A DNA stretch of 64,000 nt, taken from the NCBI RefSeq assembly GCF_007559335.1, contig NZ_VMBG01000001.1, forward strand, positions 2,046,001 to 2,110,000, read 5' to 3'. This document shows, in pieces, positions 27,539-34,304 of the stretch. A program made the position numbers and the translations under genes. The notes below the pieces were generated by a model. The model did no database searches, was not told the DNA's origin, and worked only from the letters and a program-made list of their open reading frames with translations. The number at the start of each line of letters is the position of its first letter. Position 1 is the stretch's first letter. Origin of the DNA: Rariglobus hedericola (GTDB lineage Bacteria; Verrucomicrobiota; Verrucomicrobiia; Opitutales; Opitutaceae).

Positions 27539-27637
27539 GACTAAGAAACCTTGGTCACCCGCTCGTTTGCGACAGTGTGAATTCCGCAGCCATTGACCGT
27601 CCAAGGACGCTCGCGCAGGCTGCCAGCTTCCTTCTCC

Positions 27638-29419
27638 ATGACCCCGCCCGTCGCTCCGAGTGCGTCCTCCAGTGCCTTTCGCCGCCATCTCTGGCCGCTC
27701 CTGCGACGCCACCGCTGGGCCATTATCGCAGCTGTCATTTTGGTAAGTCTCCACGGCGGCGCCATGACGCTGCAGAACGTCTATCCGAAGTGGCTTTTTT
27801 CTGAAGTCTTGGAGCCCAAAAATCTCGCCACCAGCGAACGCTGGCACCGACTCGCCTGGCTCATCGCCGGATACCTCACCGTATCGATTTTCCTGCGCAT
27901 GATCCTGTGGCATTGCGGCTACCGGATTTTCACCTGGGCTCGCGAACGCATCGTGTTCTCGTTGCGCGCGCAGTTTTTCCGCCACGTCAACCACCTGTGC
28001 CTGCGGTTTCACGGCGAGCACCACTCGGGCGAATTGTTCAGTTATCTTTTCGGCACACCGCTGGCCAACGTCATGCAGTTTTTCCAGCAGACTTCACTGC
28101 TGGCACCCGGCGCCGTCATCGTGATCGTCTCGACGCTCGGCCTTTTCTGGCAATGGGACTGGCCGATCGCAGTGCTGCTCACCGTGCTGTGCGCGCTCAG
28201 CTTTTGGATCATGATCTATGCGCGCAACCGCATCAAAATCATCCAGACCGATTACCAAAAAACCGAAGGCGCGGTCAGCGGTCGCGTGGCCGATCTGCTC
28301 CGTGGCAACAAGGCCGTGAAGCTCCACTCGATGGAATCTTCCATCAGTGTCGATTTCGAACAACAGGCCGAGCTCATCGGCCGCAAATCCTATGAGCGCG
28401 ACGTCCGCAGTCACGTCGAGTGGATGAAGCAGGAAACCCTCACCTACTTCGGCTACGTATCCTTGCTCGCGCTGTGCACGTGGCGGTATCTCGACGGCCA
28501 GATCGACCTTGGCATCGTTGCCGCCTGCCTCGCCGCTTACAGCGGGCTCAACTGGCCGCTGCAGCAGATATTCAACTCCGTCACCTTGTGGGCCGGTTGC
28601 TCCGCATCGCTCGATCGCATAGGCACCGTGCTCGACACCGCCAGCACCACACCCGATCCGGTCTCGCCCGTGCCCGTCCCGAAGGAGCCGGGCGAACTTC
28701 GTTTCGAACGCGTCTCATTCCACTATGCCGACGGCTCGCCGATCCTGCACGAGCTCGATCTGGTGATTCCCTACGGGCATCGCGTGGCCATCGTCGGCCC
28801 TTCCGGCGCGGGCAAGAGCACGTTGTTGCAACTCCTCCTTCGTCTCTACGATCCGGCACAGGGGAACGTCCGCATCGCCGGTATCGATGTCCGTGATATC
28901 GCCGGTCGCGATCTGCGCCGTCTCTTCGGCGTCGTGCCGCAGGACACCTTCGTATTCCGCTCCACCTTGCGCGACAACATCCGCCTCGCCCGGCCTGATG
29001 CCGATGACGCGGCCATCCGGCGCGCCTGCGAACAAGCCAACGCCTGGGAGTTCATCTCACGCCTGCCCGAAGGTCTCGACACGCCCGTCGGCGAGGGAGG
29101 CTCGTCGCTTTCCGGCGGCCAGCGCCAACGCATCGCCATCGCGCGTGTTTTCCTCGCAGATCCGCCCTACTTCGTTTTCGACGAAGCCACCAGCGCGCTC
29201 GACACGCTCAGCGAGCAGCTCATCCAGGAAGCCATCGAGAAAAACCTCACGGGTCGCACCGCGCTTTTCGTCGCCCACCGGTTGTCCACCGTAAAGAACT
29301 GCGACCGCATTCTCGTGATGGAAGCAGGCTCCATCGTTCAAGACGGCAGCTACGACGAATTACTCGGCCGCCCCGGCCTGTTCCGCGAACTTGTCCACGG
29401 ACAACAATTGCGCGAGTAA
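27638..29419 (+). CDS. ABC exporter, fused membrane and ATP-binding domains
   Basis: A 593-aa half-transporter. Six hydrophobic helices (residues about 25-330) are followed by an ATPase domain with Walker A GPSGAGKST, Q-loop VVPQDTF, signature LSGGQRQR, Walker B YFVFDEATSALD and H-loop VAHRLSTV. It resembles MsbA/multidrug-type homodimeric exporters. The ATG at 27638 is preferred to a TTG 45 bp upstream. The kinase gene starts 26 bp after its stop, so it may belong to the same transcript as the exosortase operon. The cargo is unknown. Confidence 0.9.
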   Translation: MTPPVAPSASSSAFRRHLWPLLRRHRWAIIAAVILVSLHGGAMTLQNVYPKWLFSEVLEPKNLATSERWHRLAWLIAGYLTVSIFLRMILWHCGYRIFTWARERIVFSLRAQFFRHVNHLCLRFHGEHHSGELFSYLFGTPLANVMQFFQQTSLLAPGAVIVIVSTLGLFWQWDWPIAVLLTVLCALSFWIMIYARNRIKIIQTDYQKTEGAVSGRVADLLRGNKAVKLHSMESSISVDFEQQAELIGRKSYERDVRSHVEWMKQETLTYFGYVSLLALCTWRYLDGQIDLGIVAACLAAYSGLNWPLQQIFNSVTLWAGCSASLDRIGTVLDTASTTPDPVSPVPVPKEPGELRFERVSFHYADGSPILHELDLVIPYGHRVAIVGPSGAGKSTLLQLLLRLYDPAQGNVRIAGIDVRDIAGRDLRRLFGVVPQDTFVFRSTLRDNIRLARPDADDAAIRRACEQANAWEFISRLPEGLDTPVGEGGSSLSGGQRQRIAIARVFLADPPYFVFDEATSALDTLSEQLIQEAIEKNLTGRTALFVAHRLSTVKNCDRILVMEAGSIVQDGSYDELLGRPGLFRELVHGQQLRE

Positions 29420-29445: not shown

Positions 29446-30888
29446 GTGACGATCCGCACCCGCATCCTGCTTGTTTACCTGCTGTTGATCGGCGGCAGCT
29501 ATCTCTACCTGGTCTCGTGGATTCTCGAAGGCATTCGTCCGCGTTACCTCGAATCCATGGAGGAGTCGCTGGTCGACACCGCCGCCTTGCTCGCCTCGGT
29601 CGTCGAAACGAGCTCCACCGGCACCACGCCCGATGCCGCGCAACTGCGCACCGCGGTCGATGGCGCCCATCGCCGCCAGCTCGACGCACTCATCTACGGC
29701 ATGCGCAAAACCTCCATCGACCTGCGCGTTTACGTGACCGATGCACAGGGCATTGTGCTCTACGATTCCGACGCGGGTCACGACGAAGGCGTGGATTATT
29801 CCCAGTGGCGCGATGTGGCGCGCACCCTCGCCGGCTCTTACGGGGCGCGCGCCACCCGCGACGATCCCGACGACGAATCCTCCCTCGGCATTTACGTCGC
29901 GGCGCCGATCCGCTCCGGTGACGCCATCATCGGCGTGCTCGCGGTCGGCAAACCCACGCGCAACATCAACGAGCTCGTCGCCGTCGCTCGCACCCGCGTG
30001 TTGCTGGCCGGTTTGATCGGCGGCGTGTTGGTGATCAGCGCCGGCATCGCGTTCTCCGTGTGGCTGACGACGCCACTAGAAAAACTCACCGCCTACGCCC
30101 GCGCCGTGCGTGACGGACGCCCCGCCACCCTGCCCCGCCTCGCCGGCCGCGAGGTCGGCGACCTGCGCCGCGCCTTCGAAGAAATGCGCGCCGCCCTCGA
30201 GGGCAAAGACTACGTCGAGCGTTACACCCAAACCCTCGCCCACGAGATCAAAGCCCCGCTCTCGGCCATTCGCGGCGCCGCCGAACTGCTCGCCGAGGAC
30301 GCCGACATGCCGCCGGACCAACGCGCCAAATTCCTCGCCAACTTGCGCTCCGAGTCCGCCCGCATCCAGCAGATCGTGGACAAACTTCTCCAACTCGCCG
30401 CCCTCGAAGCGCGCAAGCATCTCTCGGACGTGGAGCCCGTTGATCTGAATTCGCTGGTGCGCGAAGTCGCTTCCTTCGGCGAACCCACCCGCACCGCTCG
30501 CGGACTCACCTTGATCCTACCCTCCGCCGATACCGAAAAGCTCATCGTTAAAGGCGAAAAATTCCTGCTCACCCAGGCACTTTCCAACCTCCTTCAAAAC
30601 GCCGCCGAGTTCACGCCCGCCGGCGGAACGCTGACATTGTCGCTCACCCGATCCGCCCGACACGCCGTGATCACGCTCGACGACACCGGCACCGGTATTG
30701 CCGACTACGCACTACCCCAGGTATTCGACCGGTTTTATTCGCTGCCGCGTCCCGCCGGCGGAGCCAAGAGCACCGGCCTCGGCCTGAGTTTTGTGCGCGA
30801 GATCGCACACCTGCACGGCGGCGAGATCACCGTCGCCAACCGCCCCGACGCACGCGGCTGCCGCGCCGTGCTCACGTTGCCGGTGTAG
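29446..30888 (+). CDS. CreC-like sensor histidine kinase
   Basis: A 480-aa kinase with a GTG start. There are two membrane helices (residues about 5-27 and 185-208) around an extracytoplasmic sensor domain. The sensor is CreC-like by motif: YVTDAQGIVLYDS, DYSQWRDVARTLAGSYGAR and IYVAAPI. A HAMP segment is followed by the phosphoacceptor LAHEIKAPLSAIRG (His266) and an ATPase domain with NLLQNAAEFTP, DDTGTGI and FDRFYSLPRP. No response regulator gene is beside it in this window, although creB normally precedes creC. The exosortase operon follows 80 bp later. Confidence 0.88.
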   Translation: MTIRTRILLVYLLLIGGSYLYLVSWILEGIRPRYLESMEESLVDTAALLASVVETSSTGTTPDAAQLRTAVDGAHRRQLDALIYGMRKTSIDLRVYVTDAQGIVLYDSDAGHDEGVDYSQWRDVARTLAGSYGARATRDDPDDESSLGIYVAAPIRSGDAIIGVLAVGKPTRNINELVAVARTRVLLAGLIGGVLVISAGIAFSVWLTTPLEKLTAYARAVRDGRPATLPRLAGREVGDLRRAFEEMRAALEGKDYVERYTQTLAHEIKAPLSAIRGAAELLAEDADMPPDQRAKFLANLRSESARIQQIVDKLLQLAALEARKHLSDVEPVDLNSLVREVASFGEPTRTARGLTLILPSADTEKLIVKGEKFLLTQALSNLLQNAAEFTPAGGTLTLSLTRSARHAVITLDDTGTGIADYALPQVFDRFYSLPRPAGGAKSTGLGLSFVREIAHLHGGEITVANRPDARGCRAVLTLPV

Positions 30889-30967: not shown

Positions 30968-32977
30968 ATGAAACGCTTTGCCCTCCTCCTGCTCTTTCTC
31001 CCGGCCGTCTTATTCGCCCAAAACGACGACTCGGCCGATTCCACGCGCGACAAAAACCTCTCGCCTTACTTCTGGGTGCGCAACGCCTCGCCCGGCGCCG
31101 ACACGCTTCCGCTCAAGTCAACGCACGTCGAGGCCACACTCGCCGGCGTCATCGCCGATGTGAGCGTGACGCAGGTTTACACCAACACCGGCACCACGCC
31201 CATCGAGGCGATCTATGTGTTTCCCGGCTCCACCCGCGCCGCCGTGCACGGGCTCACGCTCACCATCGGCGAGCGTCGCATCGAAGCCCGCGTGCAGGAA
31301 CGCCAGCAAGCCCGCCGCACTTACGAGGCCGCCAAATCCGCCGGAAAAACCACGTCTCTCCTCGAACAACAACGTCCCAACGTTTTCCAAATGAACGTCG
31401 CCAATATCCTCCCCGGCGACGAGGTGCGCGTGGAGTTGCGCTACACCGAACTGCTCGTCCCGACCGACGGCGTCTACGAATTCGTTTATCCCGGCGTGGT
31501 CGGCCCTCGCTACTCGAAGACCGCCGCCGCGAACGCCTCGACCGACGACACGTGGGTGCAGAATCCTTATCTGCCGACGCAGACCAATGATCCCACCGCG
31601 TTCACGCTCACGGTCAACTGTCTCACCGGCGTTCCCCTGCGCGAAGCCGCCTGCTACACGCATCGCACGTCGATTGTGTATGCCGATCCCTCGCGCGCCC
31701 GCATCACGCTCGATCCGTCCGAGACCACCGGCGCCAATCGCGATTTCATTCTGCGCTACCGGCTCACCGGCGAAGCCCTGCAAGCCGGTCTCCTCGTGAG
31801 CGAGGGCGCGAACGAAAACTTCTTCCTCGCGATGATCCAGCCGCCCGCGCGTCCGGTCGCCGCCACGTTGCCACCGCGCGATTATCTTTTTGTCGTCGAT
31901 GTCTCCGGCTCGATGCGCGGCTTCCCGCTTCAGACCACGCGCACGCTCCTCCGCCAGCTCTTCCCCGGACTCCGTCCGCAGGACACGTTCAACGTCCTGC
32001 TCTTCTCCGGCGACAGCCGCACGCTCAGCCCGCGCTCACTGCCCGCCACGCCCGCCAACCTCGAAGCCGCCCTCAATCTCCTCTCCGGCCAGGACGGCGC
32101 CGGCGGCACCGAATTGCTGCCCGCGTTGCAGGCGGCCTTTGCATTACCGCGCCAAGAAAACCTTTCGCGTATCATCACCGTGATCACCGATGGCTACGTG
32201 GACGTGGAGGCCAAAGCATTCGATCTCGTGCGCTCGCACGCCGATAAGGGCAACGTTTTCGCCTTCGGCATCGGCTCCAGCGTCAACCGTCACCTCATCG
32301 AGGGCATCGCGCGCGCCGGTCAGGGCGAGCCGTTCATCGTGACCGATCCCGGCGAGGCCGAGACCGTCGCCAAGGCCTTTCACAACTACATCGCCGCGCC
32401 CGTGCTCACCGCCGCCAAACTGGAGATCACCGGTCTCGACGCCTACGACATCGAGCCGCGCAGTCTCCCCGACGTGTTTGCCCAGCGCCCCGTGATCGTC
32501 TTAGGCAAATGGCGCGGTCCGCGCACCGGACAACTCACCTTGCGCGGTTTGACCGGTGCCGCTCCGTTCGCGGCCACGCTCGATCTCGCGAAGGCCCAAA
32601 GTATTTCCGGCGGCGGTCTGTCCCACCTGTGGGCGCGCCATCGGATCAGCCAGCTGATGGACGACATCTCCCGCGAATCGACGCCCGAACGTATCGCCGA
32701 AGTCACTACGCTCGGTCTCAGCTACAACTTGCTCACGCGCTACACGTCATTCGTCGCCGTGGACGAAATCGTGCGTCGCACCGGCGCAAATCTCACCACC
32801 GTCAACCAACCCGTGCCACTCCCCCAAGGCGTTGCCGCGAGCGCCGTCGGCAACAGCGGCGGTGGCAACATCCCGACTTCGCCCGAGCCCGGCACGTTCG
32901 CCCTGATGATCACCGCCGCACTGATCATTCTCATCCCGGTCTATCGTCGTCATCGCAGCCAACGCCCGCAGGCATGA
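30968..32977 (+). CDS. VIT and vWA domain protein with PEP-CTERM sorting signal
   Basis: A 669-aa exported protein with a signal peptide (cut after LFA, about residue 17). The VIT (inter-alpha-trypsin type) domain spans residues 45-185 (VTQVYTNTGTTPIEAIYVFP, NVFQMNVANILPGDEV). The von Willebrand A domain spans 305-480 with an intact MIDAS DVSGS (Asp311, Ser313, Ser315) and VITDGY. The tail is PEPGTFALMI, a hydrophobic helix, and YRRHRSQRP: the three-part PEP-CTERM signal read by exosortases. The stop overlaps the exosortase ATG (ATGA). It is the likely sole substrate of that enzyme. Confidence 0.9.
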   Translation: MKRFALLLLFLPAVLFAQNDDSADSTRDKNLSPYFWVRNASPGADTLPLKSTHVEATLAGVIADVSVTQVYTNTGTTPIEAIYVFPGSTRAAVHGLTLTIGERRIEARVQERQQARRTYEAAKSAGKTTSLLEQQRPNVFQMNVANILPGDEVRVELRYTELLVPTDGVYEFVYPGVVGPRYSKTAAANASTDDTWVQNPYLPTQTNDPTAFTLTVNCLTGVPLREAACYTHRTSIVYADPSRARITLDPSETTGANRDFILRYRLTGEALQAGLLVSEGANENFFLAMIQPPARPVAATLPPRDYLFVVDVSGSMRGFPLQTTRTLLRQLFPGLRPQDTFNVLLFSGDSRTLSPRSLPATPANLEAALNLLSGQDGAGGTELLPALQAAFALPRQENLSRIITVITDGYVDVEAKAFDLVRSHADKGNVFAFGIGSSVNRHLIEGIARAGQGEPFIVTDPGEAETVAKAFHNYIAAPVLTAAKLEITGLDAYDIEPRSLPDVFAQRPVIVLGKWRGPRTGQLTLRGLTGAAPFAATLDLAKAQSISGGGLSHLWARHRISQLMDDISRESTPERIAEVTTLGLSYNLLTRYTSFVAVDEIVRRTGANLTTVNQPVPLPQGVAASAVGNSGGGNIPTSPEPGTFALMITAALIILIPVYRRHRSQRPQA

Positions 32978-33768
32978 TCCGTTTTTTCCAGACCCGCGCC
33001 TGGGTCGCACTCGCCCTGCTCGCCGCCGGCTGGCCCGTGTTGAACTGGTATGCGCTGCGCCTCAACGACGGCTCCGACGAACCGTGGGGACTCGCCGCGC
33101 TCGCCGCCGCAGCGTTGTTCGCCCCGTGGCGTGGATGGCGTGAGCCGCTGTCGCCGCGACGGCTCGCGTGGCTCTGCGGATTTCTCGCTCTCTACGTCGT
33201 GGCGTTCCCGTGGATGCCGCCGCTGATCCGTGCGTTGCTGCTGGTCACGGCACTCGGACTTGCCGCATCGGATCGCGGTTTTCCCGCCGCGTGGTGGGGA
33301 CTGTTGGTGTTGTCACTGCCCGTGGTCGCGACGCTGCAATTCTACCTCGGCTATCCGTTGAGATTGCTTACGACCCAGCTCTGCGTGCCGTTGATCGCCC
33401 TCGGCGGACACACCGCGCGCGCCGTCGGCACCACGCTCCACTGGGCTGGCGAACGCGTCGTCATCGATGCACCGTGCAGCGGCATCCGCATGCTGTGGAC
33501 CGGTCTTTTCTTCGCCGCGTGCCTCGCCTGCTGGCACCGGCTCGATGCGAGGCGCACGTTCACGCTCATGCGCATCGCCGGCCTCGCGCTGTTTCTCGCC
33601 AACGTGGTGCGCGCCACGCTGCTGTTTTTTATCGAGACCGGTTTATGGTCCGCTCCCTCCGGCAGTCATGAGGGCGCCGGCCTGCTCTGCTTCTGCCTCG
33701 CCGCCGGCGTGGTGCTCTGGATCGGAGAACGTCTCGCCCATCGCCCGCACGTGCACGCCATCGCATGA
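32974..33768 (+). CDS. Exosortase/archaeosortase family transpeptidase
   Basis: A 264-aa multi-span membrane protein with about eight helices. The exosortase catalytic triad is visible: DAPCSGIRM (Cys168), LANVVRATLL (Arg213) and GSHEGAGLLCF (His232). These enzymes cut PEP-CTERM tails and attach the protein to a surface anchor, by analogy with sortases. The ATG overlaps the stop of the VIT/vWA gene and its own stop overlaps the next ATG, so the three genes are translationally coupled. The exact Xrt subfamily cannot be assigned from memory. Confidence 0.9.
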   Translation: MIRFFQTRAWVALALLAAGWPVLNWYALRLNDGSDEPWGLAALAAAALFAPWRGWREPLSPRRLAWLCGFLALYVVAFPWMPPLIRALLLVTALGLAASDRGFPAAWWGLLVLSLPVVATLQFYLGYPLRLLTTQLCVPLIALGGHTARAVGTTLHWAGERVVIDAPCSGIRMLWTGLFFAACLACWHRLDARRTFTLMRIAGLALFLANVVRATLLFFIETGLWSAPSGSHEGAGLLCFCLAAGVVLWIGERLAHRPHVHAIA

Positions 33769-34304
33769 AACTCTACCTCCTCTTTTTCTGCGCGTGCATT
33801 GTCGCCTCAACACGCCCGATCTGGCCGGACGCCGATGCCGACTCCACTCGCTCGACGGCTTCGCGCGCATCCTTCCCCGGTTGGGCCGCGGGACCGGTTT
33901 CGCCCGATTGGGAAAAACTAACGCCCTCCGCCCGCGACGCCCGTTTCGCCAAAGATTTCCCCGGAGAAACCGGAATCTTTAGCGATGGCACCACGACGTT
34001 TGTCGTCCGCTGGCTCGATCATCCGACCCGTCGTCTGCACCCCGCGTCCGATTGTCTGCGCGCGCTTGGCTACGACATCACCCCGCGACCGCTCCGCGAA
34101 AAAGCCGACGGCACGCTCTGGAGCACCTGCGAAGCCACGCGCGACGGCGCGACCGTGCGCGTGCACGAACGCCTGCTCGGCTCCGACGGACGCAGCTGGA
34201 CCGATGTCTCCACCTGGTTCTGGCACGCGAGCCTCCGGCGCGCCGCCGGACCGTGGTGGGCGGTGACGGAAATCACCCCGATCTCCGGCCCGAGTCGCCA
34301 TTGA
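33765..34304 (+). CDS. EpsI-like exosortase-associated protein (DUF3485 type)
   Basis: A 179-aa protein with an N-terminal hydrophobic anchor (residues 1-17). The motif RRLHPASDCLRALGYDI, with Cys97, corresponds to the 'HxPExCLxxAGW' region of EpsI proteins that accompany exosortases. A later VHERLLGSDGRSW..WFWHAS segment also fits that family. In other systems EpsI is fused to or follows the exosortase, with an unknown role in processing. It starts within the exosortase stop codon (ATGA) and ends the coupled trio. Confidence 0.78.
   Translation: MKLYLLFFCACIVASTRPIWPDADADSTRSTASRASFPGWAAGPVSPDWEKLTPSARDARFAKDFPGETGIFSDGTTTFVVRWLDHPTRRLHPASDCLRALGYDITPRPLREKADGTLWSTCEATRDGATVRVHERLLGSDGRSWTDVSTWFWHASLRRAAGPWWAVTEITPISGPSRH

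Follow-up and report, generated by a model that had tools for sequence, protein, structure and literature searches.

The window, the whole stretch of 64,000 nucleotides of Rariglobus hedericola DNA analysed here, contains a three-gene operon that we regard with considerable confidence as a dedicated exosortase cassette of the XrtQ type. It encodes a secreted VIT/vWA protein, an EpsI-like partner and, between them, a coupled membrane exosortase, which is very probably the enzyme that cuts and anchors the surface protein. The features of the locus are as follows.

27593–29419: MsbA-like ABC exporter, 26 bp upstream of creC
29446–30888, + strand: CreC sensor histidine kinase (NF008312), separated by 79 bp from the target gene downstream
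30968–32977, + strand: target P0001, a secreted VIT/vWA protein of 669 aa (Pfam domains, ORF)
32879–32974, + strand: PEP-CTERM-like tail of the target, SPEPG, hydrophobic helix and RRHRSQR (motif only, no HMM match)
32974–33768, + strand: exosortase P0002, XrtQ-like, 264 aa (PF09721, NF012182 nearest, catalytic residues)
33475–33477, 33610–33612 and 33667–33669, + strand: exosortase codons for Cys168, Arg213 and His232
33765–34304, + strand: EpsI-like partner P0003 (179 aa), a single N-terminal helix plus an alpha/beta domain that carries H92-x4-C97-x4-G102

The three open reading frames of the operon lie on the same strand, and both junctions are 4-base ATGA overlaps, as an earlier note on this DNA had described.

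The target protein

P0001 begins with a signal peptide at approximately residues 1–18 (judged by eye). Pfam places a VIT domain at residues 49–159 (PF08487, 122 bits, over threshold) and a vWA domain at about residues 304–470, where PF13768, PF00092 and PF13519 each score over gathering. The MIDAS is intact, with DVSGS at 311 (D311/S313/S315), Thr381 and Asp408, so that the domain architecture given in the earlier note is correct. The nearest NCBIfam model is TIGR03788, the marine sortase target, which matches over 588 residues (2e-122) with 409.7 bits, below its cut-off of 551.65.

The C-terminal tail, SPEPGTFALMITAALIILIPVYRRHR, has SPEPG at position 638, followed by a hydrophobic stretch and then RRHR. 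The PEP motif, hydrophobic helix and basic C-terminal end looked for in such a tail are all present in P0001, SPEPGTFALMITAALIILIPVYRRHRSQ. The earlier reading of a PEP-CTERM tail therefore holds for these three elements, but not at the level of a profile match: neither PF07589 nor TIGR02595, nor any other PEP-CTERM HMM, recognises the tail of the window target, which counts against its reading as the exosortase substrate. The tails of some homologues are recognised by these HMMs, and those of close homologues score at threshold. An [S/T/A]PEP tail is found in 22/22 family homologues, the motif in locus L062 being SPEP.

Other VIT proteins were seen in passing. The window genome has a second VIT/vWA protein (L087 6384–8417) with a Gly-rich linker, a membrane helix and a basic end, with no PEP motif and no adjoining exosortase, which may be a paralogue with another mode of anchoring. 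VIT homologues of a third class, with about 31% identity to P0001, occur in open frames of 1300–1900 codons (G055:C165:10506-12317, G083:C111:48796-50610 and G008:C296:36128-37906).

The exosortase

P0002 is a member of the exosortase family, scoring 76.2 bits against PF09721 (cut-off 25.7) and 46.2 against TIGR04178 (cut-off 23). The catalytic residues Cys168, Arg213 and His232, which had been pointed out from the single sequence, are invariant in 21/21 proteins of alignment A1 and in 49/49 exosortases of the tree. The best named model is exosortase Q (NF012182) at 169.3 bits, which does not reach the cut-off of 270; it is also the best match by E-value for all 21 members of the family alignment. 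Scores against XrtN (58.8 bits, cut-off 200) and XrtT (46.1 bits, cut-off 250) are both below their cut-offs. The comparison with XrtN made in the earlier note was a reasonable one, but XrtQ is closer than any other named exosortase (169 versus 59 bits for XrtN).

The XrtQ cut-off was reached in none of the 388 genomes of the window's phylum. Curated-level XrtQ proteins, at 316–380 bits, are found in Pseudomonadota, where they share the VIT–exosortase–EpsI gene order of the window. In the exosortase tree, a single branch of 43 rows with moderate support (85/89) has curated XrtQ nested among the window's relatives, and the other exosortases of the window genome sit apart from it. Because the score of P0002 falls below the XrtQ cut-off, and because curated XrtQ lies inside the radiation of its relatives with only moderate support, we call the protein XrtQ-like rather than XrtQ; the sequence comparisons identify it as a divergent relative of exosortase Q. 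Our literature search found no experiment on any XrtQ, and searches for XrtN and for VIT domains with an exosortase returned no paper. A plasmid search with the exosortase gave no match.

The EpsI-like partner

P0003 has no Pfam match, its sole model match being to the C-terminal domain of XrtT (NF033770), and profile comparison using hhalign with exosortase-fused EpsI domains was not significant. In most relatives its counterpart forms the rear part of a fusion with the exosortase, an arrangement also known for EpsI in other exosortases, and the H-x4-C-x4-G motif is common to the P0003 family and EpsI. AlphaFold models were obtained for P0003 (pLDDT 91) and for the EpsI domain of the family's other exosortases (pLDDT 79). 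Both have the element order E-H-E-E-H-E-E-E-H-E, and the helix that bears the H-C motif is the same in each; this is a comparison of order and not a superposition. Foldseek found no solved structure resembling the P0003 fold (best E 0.039). We assign P0003 as EpsI on its predicted fold order, its motif, its place behind the exosortase and the fusion in relatives. The EpsI-like character proposed in the earlier note is thus upheld by predicted fold, shared motif and fusion, but not by sequence or profile similarity.

Linkage of the three genes

Of 150 family genomes, 22 contain the exosortase. Each of these has the VIT gene adjacent on the upstream side, and the partner either adjacent downstream or fused to the exosortase. 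Conversely, VIT orthologues were found in 23 genomes of the family, of which 22 also have the exosortase; in the remaining one, a contig ends within the gene. A further 23 loci from the wider phylum and Pseudomonadota were read, each of which has a same-strand VIT protein. Over the window's phylum and Pseudomonadota together, a same-strand VIT protein is thus present at each of the 45 XrtQ-like loci that were read. The linkage is exclusive over these two phyla, the 22/22 in the family is far beyond chance, and the prediction that the VIT protein would always be the neighbour of this exosortase is confirmed. Distances between VIT proteins and between exosortases are correlated at 0.90, a value that includes shared species history.

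Among 399 Pseudomonadota genomes, the TIGR03788 cut-off was passed in 37, and in six the best match was 404–435 bits. Five of the latter coincide exactly with the set of genomes that have XrtQ over its cut-off, and the sixth has an adjacent XrtT (688 bits). XrtT looks to be VIT-linked as well: in G766 (L239 4397–10566, 688 bits) its neighbours are a CreC/CreB-like pair and a VIT/vWA protein whose tail is of the APEP type.

Eight of the 45 loci carry a second type of target of roughly 770–970 residues, which combines several membrane helices with a VIT-like region, has a PEP tail and retains only a degenerate vWA domain; L154 and L155 are carriers of this large type. Those members that were scanned partly match TIGR04477, the target model of the XrtN system (TIGR04476/TIGR04477), in which an exosortase is likewise found with a VIT-domain target. 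The matches, at XrtQ-like loci L148 and L199–L201, are below cut-off. The window target has no TIGR04477 match.

Dedication of the pair

The window genome contains six exosortases in total, five besides P0002, and PF07589 recognises 43 further PEP-CTERM proteins there. P0002 might therefore be imagined as a general sorting enzyme that merely lies beside one of many substrates and is used by the other PEP-CTERM proteins too, and the numbers just given speak for this reading. Four observations argue against it, and we consider it highly improbable. Linkage to a VIT protein is found at all 45 loci; the genome's other exosortases are placed elsewhere in the tree; there are genomes with a sole enzyme and one or no other recognisable PEP-CTERM protein; and the other substrates have a different residue before PEP. 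This residue is V or I in all 30 of the other PEP-CTERM proteins read from the window genome, against S, T or A in the 22 family VIT tails. VPEP is often found in the VIT tails of class-level relatives, and the difference in the tails is therefore local rather than universal.

The genomes in which the pair stands alone are the clearest cases. In Pseudomonas alcaligenes MRY13-0052 (G151, 6.9 Mb), the pair itself accounts for the single exosortase and the single PF07589 protein of the genome. G650 has one exosortase and one PEP-CTERM match, both at the XrtQ-like locus. G884, G711 and G573 each have one exosortase and no PF07589 match, their VIT tails falling below threshold. Given these genomes and the 45/45 linkage, we conclude that the pairing of exosortase and VIT protein is dedicated, and probably so in the window genome too, despite its other exosortases. 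The earlier note had named two findings that would speak against dedication. One of them was made, in that five other exosortases and 43 other PEP-CTERM proteins exist in the genome; the other was not, as the genes are unlinked at none of the 45 loci.

A dedicated sorting system has been defined as one in which an enzyme has just one target within its genome (PMC3237569). G151 and G650 show exactly this arrangement; the window genome has additional exosortases and substrates, and any of the five other exosortases could in principle process the window target. These five (L001–L005), three of which are fused to EpsI-type domains, do not score over the cut-off of any specific Xrt model.

Most exosortases have dozens of substrates each and have been resistant to biochemistry. 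Genomes with one exosortase and one recognisable substrate side by side, such as that of Pseudomonas alcaligenes, offer the simplest setting in which to learn where cleavage occurs, what the acceptor is and how EpsI contributes.

One target family, different enzymes

Elsewhere, targets of this family are paired with a sortase, an enzyme unrelated to the exosortase, as the earlier note had pointed out. A class GN sortase over its cut-off adjoins the sortase-type VIT target in 5/5 loci tested, and the tails of these targets are LPxTA-like (LPQTAT, YPQTAT, LPKTAT and similar). In a tree of the VIT proteins with their tails removed, 36 exosortase-linked proteins lie on one side of a branch (support 99/100) and eight sortase-linked proteins on another branch (98/95). 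The VIT clades thus sort by enzyme: each kind forms one clade, and the two group together against generic VIT paralogues with full support.

The earlier note had suggested convergent recruitment. In one form of such a reading, unrelated VIT/vWA proteins would have been paired independently with a sortase and with an exosortase, and it is true that the two enzymes are unrelated (PMC3237569). We regard it as improbable, given the match of P0001 to TIGR03788 over most of its length and the grouping of the two kinds of VIT protein apart from the generic paralogues. The tree and the TIGR03788 match indicate instead that the target is homologous and that enzyme and tail have been exchanged together. 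The target design is therefore not convergent, and on sequence grounds we read the two systems as one homologous target on which enzyme and tail have been exchanged. This suggests that selection keeps the anchoring of the protein and not a particular chemistry.

Nor is the system a new inference. Haft and Varghese (2011; PMC3237569, Fig. 3C) reported, in the passage concerned, that proteins of the VIT/vWA family have tails of three kinds: GlyGly-CTERM; LPXTG, in which case a dedicated sortase adjoins the target; or, in Verrucomicrobium spinosum, PEP-CTERM together with its cognate exosortase. The exosortase case is a single example given in passing, and that passage does not mention an XrtQ class, an EpsI partner, CreBC or spread across phyla. 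The basic form of the pairing was accordingly published in 2011, and the present locus is a well-supported further case and no new kind of system. Relative to the literature that we found, what is new is the XrtQ-like identity of the enzyme, the strict linkage over two phyla, the one-to-one genomes, the fold evidence for EpsI and the association with CreBC/CreD.

The proteobacterial dedicated sortase system (TIGR03784/03785/03787/03788) resembles the window locus in having a dedicated enzyme beside a VIT/vWA target, often near a two-component system. It differs in its unrelated sortase and LPxTA-like tail, and the window proteins do not reach the cut-offs of its kinase and target models.

Proposed mechanism

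In the mechanism that we propose, Sec would export the VIT/vWA protein, whose C-terminal helix would keep it in the inner membrane. Its neighbour, the XrtQ-like exosortase, would then cut at the PEP motif using Cys168, together with Arg213 and His232, and the new C-terminus would be passed via a thioester intermediate to a putative acceptor, either a lipid or a glycan. The EpsI-like domain would contribute to this from the periplasmic side. The chemistry of cleavage and transfer is suggested by analogy with archaeosortase ArtA, whose processing depends on lipid-synthesis genes and results in attachment of a lipid (PMC7157517); we infer the acceptor, the final location and the regulation of the target.

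A simpler scheme would have the exosortase and its EpsI-like partner act only as a releasing protease, leaving the VIT protein attached to nothing. This would be compatible with the computational analysis of the locus, which identified no acceptor or acceptor-making enzyme there. The ArtA precedent, which ends in lipid attachment, points the other way, as does the fact that the same VIT family is served by sortases, which are known transpeptidases. We consider release alone unlikely, and prefer cleavage coupled to transfer.

Association with the Cre system

The kinase upstream of the operon scores 561 bits against NF008312 (CreC), over the cut-off of 356. It was also considered as the kinase of the dedicated sortase system and rejected, with 121.7 bits against a cut-off of 612.2 for TIGR03785; the parallel drawn in the earlier note between the two kinases is a generic likeness only. 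Same-strand creC or creBC genes accompany the cassette at 18 of the 45 loci, and creD is near six. A fixed order, creD–VIT–exosortase–EpsI–creB–creC, is shared by L064 and a distant group of loci (L146, L148 and L150). The window has no creB, and CreC is therefore without an adjacent response regulator; the MsbA-like ABC transporter occupies the place where G117, of the same genus, has creB (L061 3572–4303).

CreD supports envelope integrity in Stenotrophomonas (PMC4689548). CreC is the probable regulator of the cassette: acting with CreB, encoded elsewhere or, in relatives, within the operon, it would probably tune expression to the state of the envelope. To our knowledge, the Cre envelope-stress system (CreBC, CreD) is without a clear surface output, and its association with the cassette suggests one for the CreBC two-component system. 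Human inter-alpha-trypsin heavy chains have the same VIT/vWA architecture and are attached to a glycan at their C-terminus. As a speculation, which we hold only tentatively, the old partner of the Cre system may be a VIT/vWA surface protein that has an anchoring enzyme to itself and for which XrtQ, XrtT, XrtN-like enzymes and class GN sortase would be interchangeable anchoring modules, the target perhaps being attached to a glycan through its C-terminus like the human heavy chains.

The six-gene arrangement is complete in L148 (4047–11661; also in L146 and L150), comprising creD, a multi-TM VIT protein with a PEP tail, an XrtQ-like exosortase, an EpsI-like protein, creB and creC; the target in L148 partly matches the XrtN target and MSEP-CTERM models.
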